Source: Aurantiacibacter luteus
GTDB taxonomy: Bacteria > Pseudomonadota > Alphaproteobacteria > Sphingomonadales > Sphingomonadaceae
DNA: 64,000 bases
Assembly (NCBI RefSeq): GCF_001010945.1
Contig: NZ_LBHB01000001.1
Span: 310,001 to 374,000, forward strand
Reading direction: 5' to 3'
Shown here: one piece after another, positions 20,081 to 26,606 of the stretch
How the letters are laid out: each line of letters opens with the position of its first letter
How positions within the stretch are numbered: the first letter of the stretch is position 1
Notes under the pieces: model-generated
Database searches by the model: none
Seen by the model: only the letters and a program-made list of their open reading frames with translations
What the model was told of the DNA's origin: nothing
Program-made: the position numbers and the translations under genes

Positions 20081-21235
<1,155 letters not shown>

Positions 21236-21242
21236 CCCGCTC

Positions 21243-22355
21243 ATGACTGCCCGCCTGTACATCCACCCGCTCACCGCCGTTTCCGGCCCGCAGGCCGTGG
21301 AGGGCGACGCGGTGCGACTGGCCGGCGGCATGGTCTATGCGCGCGAATTCGCTGTGATCGTGCGGCGCGACGGGAAGACGATCAGCCGCGAGGTGGTCAC
21401 CCCGTCGGGCATCGACTCGGCCCTCGCGCGGTTGCCGGACGAACTAGGCCCCGAGGGCGAGCGGCAGTGGTCGGGCCTCAGGACCGCCCACCCGCCGATG
21501 CAGCTGGGGAGCCGCACGGTGCGGCTCGACCAGCCGCAGGTCATGGGCATTCTCAACGTCACGCCCGACAGCTTTTCCGACGGTGGCCGCTTCATGGACG
21601 ATCCCGAGGAAATGCGTGCCCACGCCGCCGCCATGCACGAGGCCGGCGCGGCCATCATCGACATCGGCGGGGAAAGCACGCGGCCCGGCGCCAAGGCCGT
21701 CTGGGAAGGCGAGGAGGCGCAGCGCGTCGTTCCCGCCATCGAGCACTGTGTGGCGATGGGCGCGGCCGTAAGTATCGACACGCGCCGTCCCGCGGTGATG
21801 GAGGCGGCGGTCGTGGCGGGCGCGGCAATCATCAACGACGTCTCGGCCCTGCGCTACGACCCGCGCAGCCTCGAATTCGCGGCGGCGAGCGGCAAGCCCG
21901 TGGTGCTGATGCACGCGTCCGGCAACGGGGAGGACCTGCACGCCGAGCCCGACTACGAGGCCGTGGCCTTCGACGTGTTTGATTTCCTTAAGGACGCGCG
22001 CGACCGGGCGGTCGCCGGCGGGATTGCGCAGGATCGCATCGTGCTCGACCCCGGTGTGGGCTTCGGCAAGTCGCTGGCTGACAACCTCGCCGTTCTCAAC
22101 CATCTCGCCATGTATCATGCGCTCGGCTGCCCGCTGCTGCTCGGCGCGAGCCGCAAGCGGATGATCGGCGCGCTCAGCAACGAGGTGCCCGCGCACAGGC
22201 GCACCGGCGGCAGCCTGGCGCTGGCGCAGCTCGGGATGGACGCGGGCGTGCAACTGCTGCGGGTGCACGATGTGTTCGAGACGGTGCAGGCAAGGAACGT
22301 GTGGCGCGGACTGCGCGACGCGGCGCTTACCGATTTTGCGGGGCTGGTGAGCTAG
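21243..22355 (+). CDS. folP: Dihydropteroate synthase with N-terminal extension
   Basis: This 370-residue protein makes 7,8-dihydropteroate in folate synthesis, the target of sulfonamides. The TIM-barrel core starts near residue 98 with MGILNVTPDSFSDGG, then IIDIGGESTRPGA, IINDVSALRYD, VLMHASG, and LDPGVGFGKS, all classical DHPS motifs. An extra N-terminal region of about 95 residues is seen in many alphaproteobacterial enzymes. It starts seven bases after ccrM with GAGGA upstream, so the two are probably co-transcribed. The end overlaps the convergent lipoprotein gene by four bases. Confidence 0.93.
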   Translation: MTARLYIHPLTAVSGPQAVEGDAVRLAGGMVYAREFAVIVRRDGKTISREVVTPSGIDSALARLPDELGPEGERQWSGLRTAHPPMQLGSRTVRLDQPQVMGILNVTPDSFSDGGRFMDDPEEMRAHAAAMHEAGAAIIDIGGESTRPGAKAVWEGEEAQRVVPAIEHCVAMGAAVSIDTRRPAVMEAAVVAGAAIINDVSALRYDPRSLEFAAASGKPVVLMHASGNGEDLHAEPDYEAVAFDVFDFLKDARDRAVAGGIAQDRIVLDPGVGFGKSLADNLAVLNHLAMYHALGCPLLLGASRKRMIGALSNEVPAHRRTGGSLALAQLGMDAGVQLLRVHDVFETVQARNVWRGLRDAALTDFAGLVS

Positions 22356-22972
22356 CTTCTCGCCGCGGGATCGGCGGCGTGGATCGTTGCAAGCACTCTT
22401 GCCAGTTCCTCGTCCAGAGCCGGGTCGTCGTCATCGGACTGTTGCACCACCAGCAGGGTCCGGTCGCCGACGCCGGCGAAACTGTACTCCGCTTCGCGCG
22501 CTCCCTCGTTCACCACCACCGAAAACCCTTCGGAGCCATCCATCATCGCATCGTCGAGCGGCTCGATGTCGCCCCGCGCAAAAGCAGCGCGATATTCCGC
22601 TAGCGGGCGTTCGAGCAGGGCCAGCGAGAGGCCGCTTTCCTGTGCGGCATCGCAAGGGTCGGGTTGGTCGTCCTCGTCATAGCGGCATTGCGCGGCGCCG
22701 AGCCGGTCGGCCCGGGCAACAGGGATGAGTTTGGAGGCGAAGGCGGTATCGTCGAACGTCGGCGGGATGGCCAGCTTCACCTCGGTAGGGACCAGCCGGG
22801 AATCGTCGAAGCTGTAGAGGACCGGGCCAAGGCGCGCTGTGCGCAAGTGCACTTCGTCAGGACCTTCCACGGCAAGTGTCGAGGCCTGGTCTGCCTCCAC
22901 ACCACCCGGATCGCAGGCGACCATCATGATCGCGGCAATCGCACCGGCCGCCAGTTTCCACGCTTGACGCAT
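22352..22972 (-). CDS. Lipoprotein of unknown function
   Basis: This 206-residue acidic lipoprotein has a basic n-region, a hydrophobic core and the lipobox MMVAC. The mature part has one Cys pair candidate (QCRYDED and DPCDAAQ) and a C-terminal DDDDP stretch. No family or catalytic motif is recognised. It lies on the minus strand between folP, which it overlaps tail to tail, and the NtrC-like regulator, 85 bases away. Confidence 0.6.
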   Translation of the reverse strand: MRQAWKLAAGAIAAIMMVACDPGGVEADQASTLAVEGPDEVHLRTARLGPVLYSFDDSRLVPTEVKLAIPPTFDDTAFASKLIPVARADRLGAAQCRYDEDDQPDPCDAAQESGLSLALLERPLAEYRAAFARGDIEPLDDAMMDGSEGFSVVVNEGAREAEYSFAGVGDRTLLVVQQSDDDDPALDEELARVLATIHAADPAARS

Positions 22973-23057: not shown

Positions 23058-24476
23058 TTACGCAGCGTTGTCGATACCCAGGTCCGACAGCTTGCGATAG
23101 AGCGTGGAGCGCCCGATGCCGAGCCGCCGCGCGACCTCCGTCATGCGGCCGCGATAGTGGCCGATGGCGAGGCGGATGACGTCGGCCTCGATCTCCTCCA
23201 GCGGGCGCAGGTTGCCGTCGCTCTCGTACAATTGCACGCCGGCGCTGTCGCGCACCGGGCGGCCCGAGGGGGCGATTTCGCCCACCAGTTCGCGCAGCTG
23301 CGGGAAATCGTCCGCGGTCAGCGCGTCGCCGTCGCAGAACACCGCCGCGCGGAACAGCACGGCCTGCAGCTGGCGCACGTTGCCCGGCCAGTCGAACGAG
23401 CCGAGCAGGCGCAGGGCATCGCCGGTGATGCCGAGCGGGCGCAGGCCCGGCTGCTGGCCGATCTGGTGCAGGAAATAGCGGGTCAGCGCGCCGAGGTCGC
23501 GGTCGCGCTCGCGCAGCGGCGGCAGGTGGATGCTGGTGCGGCTGAGCGCGGTCAGCAGGCTCTCGCGAAAATGCCCGGCGGCCACCAGGTCGGCGAGCGG
23601 CAGGTCGCTGGCCGAGATGATCCGCACGTCCACCTTGAAGGCATACTGCGCGCCGCGCGGCTTGAGCTGGCCGGTCTCGACCACCTGCGCCAGCCGGTCC
23701 TGCAGGTCGAGCGAGAGGCGGTCCACCTCGTCGAGCACCAGCGTGCCGCCGTCGCATTGCTGCAAGGCACCGACCTGCTGTTCGAAGGCGCCGGGAAAGG
23801 CGCCTTTCTCGTGGCCGAACAGGACCGATTCGAGGCTGCTCGTGGGGATGCCCGCGATGTTGAGTGCGCGGTAGGCGGTTTTCGCGCGGGGGCTTGCGCC
23901 GTGCAGGGCGCGGATGAGCATCTCCTTGCCGGTGCCCCGCTCGCCTTCGATCAGCACGTTGGAATGGCCGCGCGCCGCCTTGGCCGCCTTGGCCAGCGCA
24001 TCGCGGAATGCCGGCGCGGTGCCCACCATCGCGTCGAAGTCGAGGTTTGAGGGCATCTTCTCGCTTAGCGGTGTCAGCTCGTCGTGCTTCGAGCCGCGCG
24101 TGGTCGCATTGCGCAGCGCCTGCATGAGGCGCTCGGGCGCTACGGGTTTGACGAGATAGTCGGTCGCCCCTGCGCGCATGGCCTCCACCGCCAGTTGCGG
24201 ACTGGTGCTCTTCGTCAGCATCAGGATGGGCAGGGCGGGGCGGCGTTCCCTGAGCGCGGCGATCAGCTCGCAGGCGCGCTCGCCCGGCACGCCCTGTTCG
24301 AGGATGATGGCCGACAGCTGCATTCCCTGCCGCGTGCCGAGCGTGGCGATGGCGGTTTCCGAATCGCCGACGGTCAGCGTGCGCCATCCGTCGCGCGCCG
24401 CCAGCGCGGAGACCAGACGGGTCTGCGCCGGCTCGTCGTCGATGAGCATCAACAGTCGCGGTTCGGCTTCGGCCAT
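23058..24476 (-). CDS. NtrC-family regulator with degenerate receiver and GAFPGA loop
   Basis: This 472-residue protein has three parts. The receiver domain (1-120) keeps the acidic pair Asp13-Asp14, Thr88 and Lys110, but the phosphoacceptor position is Glu60 (IILEQGVPGE). The AAA+ domain (about 150-385) has Walker A GERGTGKE (178-185) and Walker B LVLDEVD, while the sigma-54-contacting loop reads GAFPGA (225-230) rather than GAFTGA. A Fis-type helix-turn-helix ends the protein (EVARRLGIGRSTLYRKL). It is thus a bacterial enhancer-binding-like regulator that probably works without phosphorylation. No sensor kinase is adjacent. ATG at 24476 was chosen over GTG at 24485. Confidence 0.88.
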   Translation of the reverse strand: MAEAEPRLLMLIDDEPAQTRLVSALAARDGWRTLTVGDSETAIATLGTRQGMQLSAIILEQGVPGERACELIAALRERRPALPILMLTKSTSPQLAVEAMRAGATDYLVKPVAPERLMQALRNATTRGSKHDELTPLSEKMPSNLDFDAMVGTAPAFRDALAKAAKAARGHSNVLIEGERGTGKEMLIRALHGASPRAKTAYRALNIAGIPTSSLESVLFGHEKGAFPGAFEQQVGALQQCDGGTLVLDEVDRLSLDLQDRLAQVVETGQLKPRGAQYAFKVDVRIISASDLPLADLVAAGHFRESLLTALSRTSIHLPPLRERDRDLGALTRYFLHQIGQQPGLRPLGITGDALRLLGSFDWPGNVRQLQAVLFRAAVFCDGDALTADDFPQLRELVGEIAPSGRPVRDSAGVQLYESDGNLRPLEEIEADVIRLAIGHYRGRMTEVARRLGIGRSTLYRKLSDLGIDNAA

Positions 24477-24570
24477 GGGTATCACCAGTCGCGCCCGGAC
24501 GAGGCGGGCAGGGAAACCCTTGCCTAGCGATCATGGGTAAAAGGGCGATTAAGCGATGCTTGGTCGCAGG

Positions 24571-24578
24571 TTAACCAT
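24571..24578 (+). promoter_or_regulatory. CtrA-type TTAACCAT motif
   Basis: TTAACCAT, a motif associated with CtrA in alphaproteobacteria, lies in the 212-base gap between the divergent NtrC-like regulator and the cytochrome oxidase subunit IV gene. It is a short motif and could occur by chance. Nothing else is recognised in this gap. Confidence 0.25.
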
Positions 24579-24688
24579 GCCGGCGGCGCGCGGCGTGGCA
24601 CAGCTGCGCCCACGGGGCTTGAGCGCGCGGCCCGGCGACGATACACGATGGGCGCACAATCATCCCAACGAGGGTCAGAGACGAGATC

Positions 24689-24811
24689 ATGGACAGCGCC
24701 AACGACATGAAAGCCCACAGCGGCACCTATTCCAGCTTCATCGCTTCGCTGAAGTGGATACTGCCGCTGATTGCGGTGATCACGGCACTCGTCGTCTTCA
24801 TCATCGCCTGA
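24689..24811 (+). CDS. aa3-type cytochrome c oxidase subunit IV-like small protein
   Basis: This 40-residue protein begins MDSANDMKAHSGTYSSF and ends in a single membrane helix (WILPLIAVITALVVFIIA). The NDMKAH-xx-TY-xx-F pattern followed by a Trp and one helix is the signature of bacterial aa3-type oxidase subunit IV. In Paracoccus and Rhodobacter this subunit is a small accessory part of cytochrome oxidase. Here it starts 11 bases upstream of the transhydrogenase gene pntAA, not with oxidase genes. Confidence 0.8.
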   Translation: MDSANDMKAHSGTYSSFIASLKWILPLIAVITALVVFIIA

Positions 24812-24822
24812 TCCGCGCCGAG

Positions 24823-25941
24823 GTGCGGATAGCGGTCCTGAAAGAGCGCGCCGCGGGAGAGAACCGCGTCGCCGCCACGCCGGAAACGGTGAAGAAGTTC
24901 ATCGCGCTGGGAGCAACAGTCGCGGTGGAGGAAGGGGCCGGGGCGGGCGCGTCGATCGGCGATGCCGCCTACGCCGACGCCGGAGCCGAAATCGCCTCCG
25001 CCGCGCAGGTCGTGGCGGGCGCGGACGTGGTGCTGGGCGTACAGGCGCCCGATCCCGCGATGCTGGCCGGTGCCGCGCCGGGTGCGTGGGTGGCGGCGAC
25101 CTTCGATCCCTTCGGTGCGCGCGAGCGGGTCGACGCCTATGCCAGCGCCGGGCTCGAGGCGCTGGCAATGGAATTCATGCCGCGCATCACCCGCGCGCAG
25201 AGCATGGACGTGCTCTCCAGCCAGTCCAACCTGGCTGGATACAAGGCGGTGATCGCCGCCGCCGACCGGTACGGCCGTGCCTTCCCTATGATGATGACGG
25301 CGGCGGGCACGGTGCAGGCTGCCAAGGTCTTCGTCATGGGCGTGGGCGTCGCGGGCCTGCAGGCCATCGCCACCGCCCGGCGGCTGGGCGCGCAGGTCTC
25401 CGCCACCGACGTCCGCTCTGCCACGAAAGAGCAGATTCAGTCGCTCGGCGCGAAGCCGGTATTCGTCGAGAGCGTCGCGGGCATCGAGGGTGAGGGAAGC
25501 GGCGGCTATGCCACCGAGATGAGCGAGGAATACCAGAGGGCGCAGGCCGAACTGGTGAGCGCGCACATTGCCAAGCAGGACATCGTCATCACCACCGCGC
25601 TGATCCCCGGCCGCGCCGCACCGCGCCTGATCACCGACGCGCAGATCGCCACCATGCGCCCGGGCAGCGTGATCTTCGACCTCGCCGTCGCGCAGGGCGG
25701 CAACGTGGAAGGTAGCGTGACCGACCAGGTGGTGGAGCGCCACGGCGTATCGATCATGGGTTTCGCCAACACCGCCGGGCATCTCGCGGCGGATGCGAGC
25801 GCGCTCTATTCGCGCAACCTCTACAACTTCCTCAGCGCCTTCTGGGACAAGGAAGCGGGGCGGCCCGTGCTGGACGAGGAGATCGGTGACGCCGTGCGCC
25901 TGACGCGCGGCGGGGCGGTGGCCAATTCCCGGTTGCAGTAA
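24823..25941 (+). CDS. pntAA: NAD(P) transhydrogenase subunit alpha, part 1
   Basis: This 372-residue NAD(H)-binding subunit (domain dI) of proton-translocating transhydrogenase has the AlaDH/PNT N-terminal block LKERAAGENRVAATPETV, then SQSNLAGY, and the nucleotide-binding VMGVGVAGLQAIATARRLGA. The likely start is GTG at 24823, matching the family's usual beginning. It is separated from the membrane subunit gene by a fasciclin gene and a terminator. The enzyme uses the proton gradient to make NADPH from NADH. Confidence 0.93.
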   Translation: MRIAVLKERAAGENRVAATPETVKKFIALGATVAVEEGAGAGASIGDAAYADAGAEIASAAQVVAGADVVLGVQAPDPAMLAGAAPGAWVAATFDPFGARERVDAYASAGLEALAMEFMPRITRAQSMDVLSSQSNLAGYKAVIAAADRYGRAFPMMMTAAGTVQAAKVFVMGVGVAGLQAIATARRLGAQVSATDVRSATKEQIQSLGAKPVFVESVAGIEGEGSGGYATEMSEEYQRAQAELVSAHIAKQDIVITTALIPGRAAPRLITDAQIATMRPGSVIFDLAVAQGGNVEGSVTDQVVERHGVSIMGFANTAGHLAADASALYSRNLYNFLSAFWDKEAGRPVLDEEIGDAVRLTRGGAVANSRLQ

Positions 25942-26036: not shown

Positions 26037-26606
26037 ATGAAGAAGTTTGCTCTCCCCATCGTTCTCGCGCTCGGCATGGCGACGACCGGCTGCATGACCA
26101 TGGACACCGCCATGGGTGACGATGTCGCCTACGTCGACGGCGCGGCCATGTATGCCAACCGCACGATCGTCGCGAATGCCGCCAATTCGCCGATCCACAC
26201 CACGCTGGTGCAGGCGGTCGCGGCTGCCGGGCTGGTCGACACGCTGAATTCCGCCGGCCCCTTCACCGTGTTCGCTCCGACGGACGAGGCGTTCGGCCGA
26301 GTACCCGCCGCTACGCGCACCAGCCTGATGGCGCCTGCCAACCATGACATGCTGCGCAGCGTGCTGACCTATCACGTCGTCCCCGGCCGCGTTACCGCCG
26401 CCGACATCGCCGCGCGCATTCGCGCCGGAAATGGCACCGCGACCTACACGACCGTGCAGGGCGAGCCGCTGACCTTCCGCATGAACAACGGCAATGTGAT
26501 GATCATGGGCATGGGCGGCAGCAGCGCCTACGTCACGCAGGCGGACGTCATGCAGTCGAACGGCGTCATCCACGTCGTGAACGGGGTGCTTACCCCCGGC
26601 ATGTAA
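26037..26606 (+). CDS. Fasciclin-domain lipoprotein
   Basis: This 189-residue exported protein has a signal peptide ending in MATTGC (lipobox) and one FAS1 domain from about residue 45. The H1 region FTVFAPTDEAFG and H2 region NGVIHVVNGVLTPGM are both present, with the YH motif in VLTYHVVPGRV. FAS1 domains mediate adhesion or matrix contacts. Its position between pntAA and pntAB, 95 bases from the former and followed by a strong terminator, is odd for a surface protein. Confidence 0.9.
   Translation: MKKFALPIVLALGMATTGCMTMDTAMGDDVAYVDGAAMYANRTIVANAANSPIHTTLVQAVAAAGLVDTLNSAGPFTVFAPTDEAFGRVPAATRTSLMAPANHDMLRSVLTYHVVPGRVTAADIAARIRAGNGTATYTTVQGEPLTFRMNNGNVMIMGMGGSSAYVTQADVMQSNGVIHVVNGVLTPGM

Follow-up and report, generated by a model that had tools for sequence, protein, structure and literature searches.

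An NtrC-type regulator beside pntA in Sphingomonadaceae that has probably abandoned sigma-54 activation, with a private glutamate at the phosphoacceptor site in Aurantiacibacter luteus

The closest described counterparts of the regulator analysed here are two other alphaproteobacterial NtrC-type proteins without a usable GAFTGA loop, the NtrC proteins of Rhodobacter capsulatus and Caulobacter, which are reported or argued to work at sigma-70 promoters (PMC10274813). Caulobacter NtrC requires its Walker A and Walker B motifs for growth on ammonium (PMC10274813). HupR, TyrR, DhaR and VpsR are likewise descendants of sigma-54 activators that lack the GAFTGA contact, with differing targets; the first three are termed sigma-70 dependent, while the loss in VpsR is inferred, and the same 2011 paper notes about 110 homologues with minor deviations from GAFTGA, among which proline is the preferred replacement for Thr/Ser (PMC3162934). 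DVU2960 of Desulfovibrio vulgaris is also a GAFPGA enhancer-binding protein whose sigma-54 function is unclear; it is entered as a single-component regulator and so would have no receiver, unlike the regulator described here (PMC4641369). We liken our protein to DVU2960 and to the HupR group by description. TacA of Caulobacter is NtrC-like too, but it is a sigma-54 user with a known phosphorelay, a direct target of CtrA and the bearer of a C-terminal Ala-Gly ClpXP signal (PMC7010744), and it carries GAFTGA (PMC10274813). Among aspartate-less receivers glutamate is the commonest replacement, as it is in our regulator (PMC12632262).

Sigma-54-independent relatives, GAFPGA itself and the preference for proline are already in print (PMC3162934). 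What appears to be new is an order-wide orthologous series running from intact to disabled beside one conserved neighbour, together with reversed rates of change in its domains and, in the receiver, an Asp to Glu substitution that is private. We found no account of this regulator family, nor anything on pntA with such a regulator or on RpoN activators of sphingomonads, in a literature search that reached few subscription papers.

The window, by which we mean the whole 64,000-nucleotide stretch of A. luteus DNA that was analysed, had been described in a sequence-only reading as carrying an NtrC-like regulator at 23058-24476. The coordinates were borne out, and the gene lies on the minus strand:
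23058..24476, minus: NtrC-like response regulator CDS, P0001, 472 aa (ORF from ATG; Pfam architecture)
24105..24455, minus: receiver domain, residues 8-124 (Pfam Response_reg 10-122; AlphaFold2 model)
23511..24035, minus: AAA+ sigma-54 interaction domain, residues 148-322 (Pfam Sigma54_activat 151-316; model superposed on 1ny6)
23298..23510, minus: AAA+ lid, residues 323-393 (Pfam AAA_lid_14 322-393)
23085..23201, minus: Fis-type HTH, residues 426-464, the best-conserved part of the family (Pfam HTH_8)

The reading frame has no internal stop, and Response_reg, Sigma54_activat, AAA_lid_14 and HTH_8 all score over their respective Pfam cut-offs, giving the receiver, AAA+ and Fis HTH layout of a group I (NtrC type) sigma-54 enhancer-binding protein. 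By sequence, the top relatives in the PDB are NtrC1, NifA, LuxO, ZraR and NtrX. An AlphaFold2 model was built with 36 family members as input (mean pLDDT 82.6, pTM 0.58); Foldseek aligned the AAA+ region of this model with 1ny6, the ATPase of NtrC1, at a TMt of 0.93-0.94, which suggests that the AAA+ fold would be intact. More specific names were tried and rejected: NtrC (TIGR01818) at 303.4 bits against an NCBIfam cut-off of 558.6, NtrX (NF051870) at 243.4 against 600, and FlbD (NF050807) at 228.5 against 750.

The genes around the regulator were scanned in the same window:
24823..25941, plus: pntA, NAD(P) transhydrogenase alpha, conserved divergent neighbour (neighbour scan)
24689..24811, plus: small ORF, aa3-type cytochrome c oxidase subunit IV family (PF07835, 24.0 bits against a cut-off of 22)
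26037-26606, plus: fasciclin-domain ORF between pntA and the remaining pnt operon (neighbour scan)
22352-22972, minus: 206-aa ORF downstream of the regulator (neither Pfam nor NCBIfam gave a match at E up to 0.001)
20084-21235, plus: ccrM-like adenine methyltransferase (CcrM model, 616 bits, under the cut-off of 830)

pntA is the divergent neighbour in all eight named Sphingomonadales loci and in Parvularcula, and stands farther upstream of the regulator in two Bradyrhizobium loci, in Afipia and in one Roseibium. Simple N-terminal patterns placed pntA within 700 bases at no fewer than 77 of the 108 family loci as against at least one of the 24 outgroup loci, and the small coxIV-like ORF at no fewer than 76 of the 108 (four of the eight named loci included) as against at least two of the 24; such patterns miss some genes, and these counts are therefore lower bounds. 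The ccrM-like gene lies two genes from the regulator, small ORFs aside, and is nearby in seven of the eight named loci. An ORF 37.5% identical to the fasciclin-domain ORF occupies the same place in locus L014, and none was seen in L012. The scan of six neighbours brought up no kinase (ccrM-like, folP, an unclassified ORF, coxIV, pntA and the fasciclin-domain ORF).

The consensus strings used as motif references are GAFTGA, TGGCAC-N5-TTGCW for sigma-54 promoters and TTAA-N7-TTAA for CtrA sites. Alignment with Aquifex NtrC1 from the PDB located the residues on which a sigma-54 motor is judged:
23787..23804, minus: GAFPGA for GAFTGA, residues 225-230 (Pro228 codon CCC at 23793-23795; NtrC1 alignment)
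23922..23945, minus: Walker A GERGTGKE, residues 178-185, with Lys184 (Lys intact in 91 of 92 Thr-less orthologues)
23547..23549, minus: codon 310, Ala for the arginine finger, R299 of NtrC1 (alignment with NtrC1)

The alignment sets GAFPGA squarely opposite GAFTGA, as the sequence-only reading had it, so in this loop the regulator departs from the group I pattern; it departs again at the arginine finger, where it has Ala310, with Arg304 present. Its Walker motifs had been called intact, and Lys184, Asp249 and Glu250 are indeed in place. Glu250 aligns with E239 of NtrC1, E239 and R299 being the Walker B Glu and the arginine finger of that protein (PMC7175178). Read from the alignment only, the sensor-I Asn at position 291 is replaced by Asp and the Walker B stretch is DEVD. 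Since the Walker B Asp and Glu and Arg304 are intact, some ATPase activity is possible. The regulator is thus an otherwise NtrC-like protein that has lost the GAFTGA contact by its sequence, of the Rhodobacter NtrC and HupR kind, and the earlier comparison with Rhodobacter NtrC was a fair one. The likeness has its limits: in the Rhodobacter and Caulobacter proteins the loop is deleted, whereas here one residue is swapped (PMC10274813). Moreover, those two proteins are nitrogen regulators, whereas ours falls under the NtrC cut-off, sits beside pntA and has no arginine finger.

Orthologues were then compared across the order, where 377 of 396 genomes yielded a match at E up to 1e-60, in some cases a paralogue-grade one. 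The family sample of 108 rows is non-random, combining 60 loci from the order-wide search, 40 chosen for spread and eight named loci, a few of which nearly repeat other rows; genomes G153 and G286 gave no locus and were left out. At the GAFTGA Thr position the 108 Sphingomonadaceae orthologues have Pro in 66, Ala in 26 and Thr in 16, while all 24 orthologues from the order's other families have Thr. Within the genus an orthologue was found in 38 of 40 genomes (all 33 near-complete genomes have one; the two that yielded none are 69 and 70% complete), and both the Thr (Pro 27, Ala 11) and Arg310 are absent from all 38. Among the 92 Thr-less orthologues Arg304 and Arg310 are both lost in 47, one is lost in 38 and neither in seven, so that 85 lack at least one arginine-finger residue; sensor-I Thr is retained in five, sensor-I Asn in 72, Walker B Glu in 75 and Walker A Lys in 91. 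On a 95-row tree GAFTGA is basal and the supported branches force at least four changes, the best tree having six; the tree comes from a quick search with SH-aLRT support only, and 28 of its 92 inner branches are open. The 16 family members that keep GAFTGA include one close to our genome (L106) and two that are more basal (L122 and L124), and loss of the Thr may therefore not be one-way.

The receiver was aligned in the same way, and one codon stands out:
24297..24299, minus: codon 60, GAA, which puts Glu at the phosphoacceptor site (the remaining 37 of 38 genus orthologues have GAC or GAT)

The Asp of LLDLLLP in NtrC1 falls opposite Glu60, while Asp13, Asp14, Thr88 and Lys110 are retained, so four of the five key residues are present, just as had been noticed from the letters. 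Since a receiver without at least one of the five conserved residues counts as a pseudo-receiver (PMC12632262), Glu60 makes this one. Across 174 columns that are at least 97% conserved in 74 relatives, D60E is the sole departure of the regulator; six other rows depart at 0, 1, 2, 0, 0 and 2 columns, so a count of one is ordinary and its location is not. Position 60 is Asp in 103 of the 108 Sphingomonadaceae orthologues, with Ser in two and Glu (our own), Thr and His in one each. In the genus it is Asp in 37 of 38, including the nearest sister (88% identity), which rules out Glu60 as a genus trait. In contrast to other aspartate-less receivers, the state is found here in a single genome of a family that mostly has Asp. 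Asp60 is also retained in 87 of the 92 Thr-less orthologues, so phosphorylation may well persist in most of the family.

The sequence-only reading had treated Glu60 and Pro228 as one combination and proposed that their conservation be checked in orthologues. Loss of the Thr, to Pro or Ala, did prove general in the genus, but Glu60 is private, as far as seen, to the A. luteus genome (one of 38 in the genus, one of 108 more widely), and Pro228 is older and shared. With such different distributions a joint origin of the two changes is ruled out.

In TacA, D54E acts as a phosphomimic (PMC7010744), and D56E of Caulobacter NtrC gives partial phosphate mimicry (PMC10274813); in EpsW, D58E is no phosphate mimic and D13K is inactive too, and glutamate does not mimic phosphate in every case (PMC4671073, PMC12632262). 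We put the chance that Glu60 is a partial phosphomimic at about even. Only slightly less probable is that the substitution reflects drift in a receiver for which phosphorylation no longer matters here, rather than a gained on-state. Drift would fit the history of the genus, where Asp14 was lost in a 12-species clade by a single change on the tree (today Asn in five, Lys in five, Ser in one and Arg in one). It would also fit the behaviour of Trp62, two residues beyond the acceptor and missing from both the regulator and its nearest sister: Trp62 is absent in 10 of 12 receivers with key-residue loss as against 1 of 63 intact receivers, and within the genus in 12 of 12 receivers without Asp14 as against 3 of 26 with it. 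However, correction for kinship leaves only four independent pairs, of which two or three agree and none opposes (sign test, median p 0.25), and one pair for the Asp14 comparison in the genus; with so few pairs the link between Trp62 and receiver lesions is a hint. Retention of the other four key residues and the single departure among 174 conserved columns also speak against a receiver adrift. A point against the reading that we prefer, given below, is that the receiver has sped up only modestly in our own lineage (compared with four sisters, chi-square 1.0 to 5.4).

Six congeners (L282, L287, L288, L296, L304 and L297) have Lys or Arg at receiver residue 14, which we take to be CheY position 13 in CheY numbering, the site of CheY D13K. 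The latter is an activating change (PMC4671073).

Rates of change differ between the domains. Among the Thr-less rows, 74 share 60% identity or more with the regulator, and for these the ratio of AAA+ to receiver divergence is 1.78 (bootstrap 1.40-2.15). The corresponding value is 0.59 for GAFTGA orthologues, 0.58 for the outgroup, 0.67 for a set of 61 distant enhancer-binding proteins and 1.35 for 13 genus rows; in 18 Thr-less rows of other lineages the shift is weaker (0.85). The HTH, in contrast, has a median distance of 0.044, with 31 of its 47 columns invariant in the 74 rows. Pairwise dN/dS over the whole gene against four near relatives is 0.06-0.19, some dS values being saturated, and is highest in the AAA+ domain and lid; the regulator gene is under purifying selection. 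A conserved predicted AAA+ fold and Walker A motif with decaying catalytic residues, in a genome that encodes other enhancer-binding proteins, could indicate a non-catalytic partner that tunes another such protein in mixed rings. We consider this improbable, because the regulator's own HTH is its best-conserved part, suggesting DNA targets of its own, and no such partner is found among the six neighbours scanned.

The suggestion that the genome be searched for rpoN was followed, and the gene is present. Of 396 genomes of the order 393 have it, 392 of them with a score above the family cut-off, and all 373 near-complete genomes are among those that do; the three genomes without a match are 53, 67 and 78% complete. 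Disappearance of sigma-54 is therefore not the cause of the loss of the GAFTGA Thr, and rpoN loss as a driver of the AAA+ change is ruled out. Four other AAA+ regulators of the genome carry GAFTGA, and there are six exact matches to the sigma-54 promoter, one of them beside a GAFTGA regulator; with up to one mismatch the matches number 52 as against 84 in the reversed control, so we place weight only on the six. Sigma-54 is presumably in use in this genome through other activators. Two further AAA+ regulators of the genome (L005 and L007) are also without GAFTGA, showing an alignment gap at the loop. No -24/-12 site of at least 9 of 11 letters occurs in the 330 bases upstream of any of 132 loci (16 GAFTGA, 92 Thr-less and 24 outgroup); because it is equally absent at GAFTGA loci, this absence does not discriminate, and it is merely permissive for a sigma-70 reading.

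With rpoN, sigma-54 promoters and intact Walker A and B motifs at hand, GAFPGA might be tolerated, the regulator still activating sigma-54 promoters with less efficiency. This is very improbable: Thr to Pro at the same place inactivated Bradyrhizobium japonicum NifA (as cited in PMC4641369), the arginine finger is gone too, and the AAA+ domain is relaxed. On the same grounds, we judge it highly probable from the sequence that the regulator no longer activates sigma-54 promoters; the earlier claim of a lost sigma-54 contact is thus very probably right, all the more as Pro or Ala stands at this position in 92 of 108 family orthologues. Least probable of all is that the gene is decaying and retains little function, for although the AAA+ domain changes faster, the lineage has extra changes (28-33 query-only against 12-16 sister-only), the copy in genome G053 is split in two frames and some family genomes have no regulator, dN/dS is far under 1, there are no stops, the HTH is nearly frozen, every near-complete genus genome has the gene and its upstream box is conserved.

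The reading we prefer, with a probability of roughly 0.6, is that of a DNA-binding regulator whose AAA+ engine is disabled, which would act at sigma-70 promoters or as a repressor without activating sigma-54, and in which Glu60 perhaps confers partial independence of phosphorylation. The ancestor of this order-wide NtrC-type regulator was probably an ordinary sigma-54 activator. Its engine would then have been decommissioned through replacement of the sigma-54-contact Thr by Pro or Ala, loss of the arginine finger and alteration of sensor I. What was preserved is Walker A, the fold, the receiver and, most of all, the HTH; the protein may yet bind ATP and oligomerise. Action without sigma-54 could take the form of activation of sigma-70 polymerase, as reported for Rhodobacter NtrC, or of repression; analogy with the Rhodobacter and Caulobacter proteins (PMC10274813) and the cases in PMC3162934 makes one or other of these modes likely. 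In A. luteus the change from Asp60 to Glu would have turned the receiver into an aspartate-less pseudo-receiver, its likeliest effect being a partly active state that needs no kinase. The sequence changes and where they occur, the rate shift, purifying selection, synteny and the upstream box are observations; the loss of sigma-54 activation, the sigma-70 or repressor role, phosphomimicry by Glu60 and regulation through abundance are drawn from them by inference.

A partly active state of this sort would leave the amount of protein to set the output, through a conserved promoter box and possibly through ClpXP acting at a C-terminal Ala-Ala, although we regard control by abundance as doubtful. 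The relevant features are these:
24537..24553, unstranded: the regulator's upstream box, GTAAA-N7-TTAAG (102 of 108 family loci match it in 9 or more of 10 letters)
24618..24645, plus: predicted sigma-70-like CTTGAG / GATACA pair towards pntA (conserved among 15 near relatives aligned)
23061..23066, minus: C-terminal Ala-Ala, a candidate tag for ClpXP (AA is the ending of 102 of 109 family rows, our own gene counted twice)

The box lies a median of 54 bases upstream and is found in about 0.5% of shuffled sequences and in 1 of 24 outgroup loci. At 9 of 10 letters or better it is absent from all 13 pntA loci that lack the regulator, where the highest score is 8 of 10; four of these loci (G244, G246, G278 and G385) come from genomes whose best match in the order search is paralogue-grade by E-value, its place being unlisted. 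Four divergent genomes with the regulator beside or near pntA score 9, 8, 8 and 7, so that one passes. Within the main family, therefore, the box tracks the regulator and not pntA. In form it is close to a CtrA site of which one half is altered. Exact TTAA-N7-TTAA is carried by none of 108 family loci, by 3 of 24 outgroup loci (mean of 0.33 in shuffled sequences) and by 4 of 11 other alphaproteobacterial loci, and the CtrA reading is only suggestive. The genome holds one exact GGTAAAN7TTAAG, at its own locus, and 11 matches with up to one mismatch as against 12 in the reversed control; a listing of the ORFs near these matches suggested no common theme, and no regulon emerged. A link to CcrM methylation was sought without success: across 108 loci, the 191 bases that precede the regulator are depleted in GANTC and not enriched (38 occurrences, as against 74 by shuffling). 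At 24570-24579, in the interval from the box to the -35-like element, stands GTTAACCATG, which we take to be a CtrA-like half site and which is also present in L094.

The Ala-Ala end is shared by none of 24 order outgroup rows and by 3 of 11 other alphaproteobacterial rows. The genome also has a DUF1465 gene (PF07323), presumably encoding RcdA, a ClpXP adaptor; of 14 control genomes, Caulobacter alone has this gene. For orthology to TacA, to which we liken the regulator by description, the Ala-Ala end and the CtrA-like box are only suggestive. A more sweeping version, which we think unlikely, has the orthologous family moving from sigma-54 motor to phosphorylation-independent, abundance-controlled DNA-binding regulator: in this genus the receiver would have been locked on by two routes, Asp60 to Glu in our genome and, in another clade, Lys or Arg at Asp14 (6 of 38 species), with the CtrA-like box and the ClpXP-type tail assuming control.

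How an enhancer-binding protein quits the role of sigma-54 motor and is nevertheless retained is, in our judgement, poorly understood. Here one gene with one neighbour and a near-identical HTH can be compared among relatives, some of them named and cultured, in which it is intact, disabled in part or disabled more fully, so that the steps could be tested by orthologue swaps; the family offers a natural series for studying how switches of this kind come to act differently. Natural pseudo-receivers are found as well, in the Glu60 genome and in the clade without Asp14; the activation of such receivers is termed a mystery in the abstract of PMC12632262.

Two minor observations concern other members. 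G053, which lies outside the 13 regulator-less loci, has a 41-44% identical regulator copy, split in two frames, about 1.6 kb from pntA; this divergent orthologue (L306, 435-1837) occupies two overlapping frames, by a possible frameshift or assembly error, upstream of pntA with another ORF between. In L144, L147 and L148 (genus g12) the acceptor has become Thr or Ser and the GAFTGA Thr and other AAA+ residues are gone, while the HTH stretch is unchanged.
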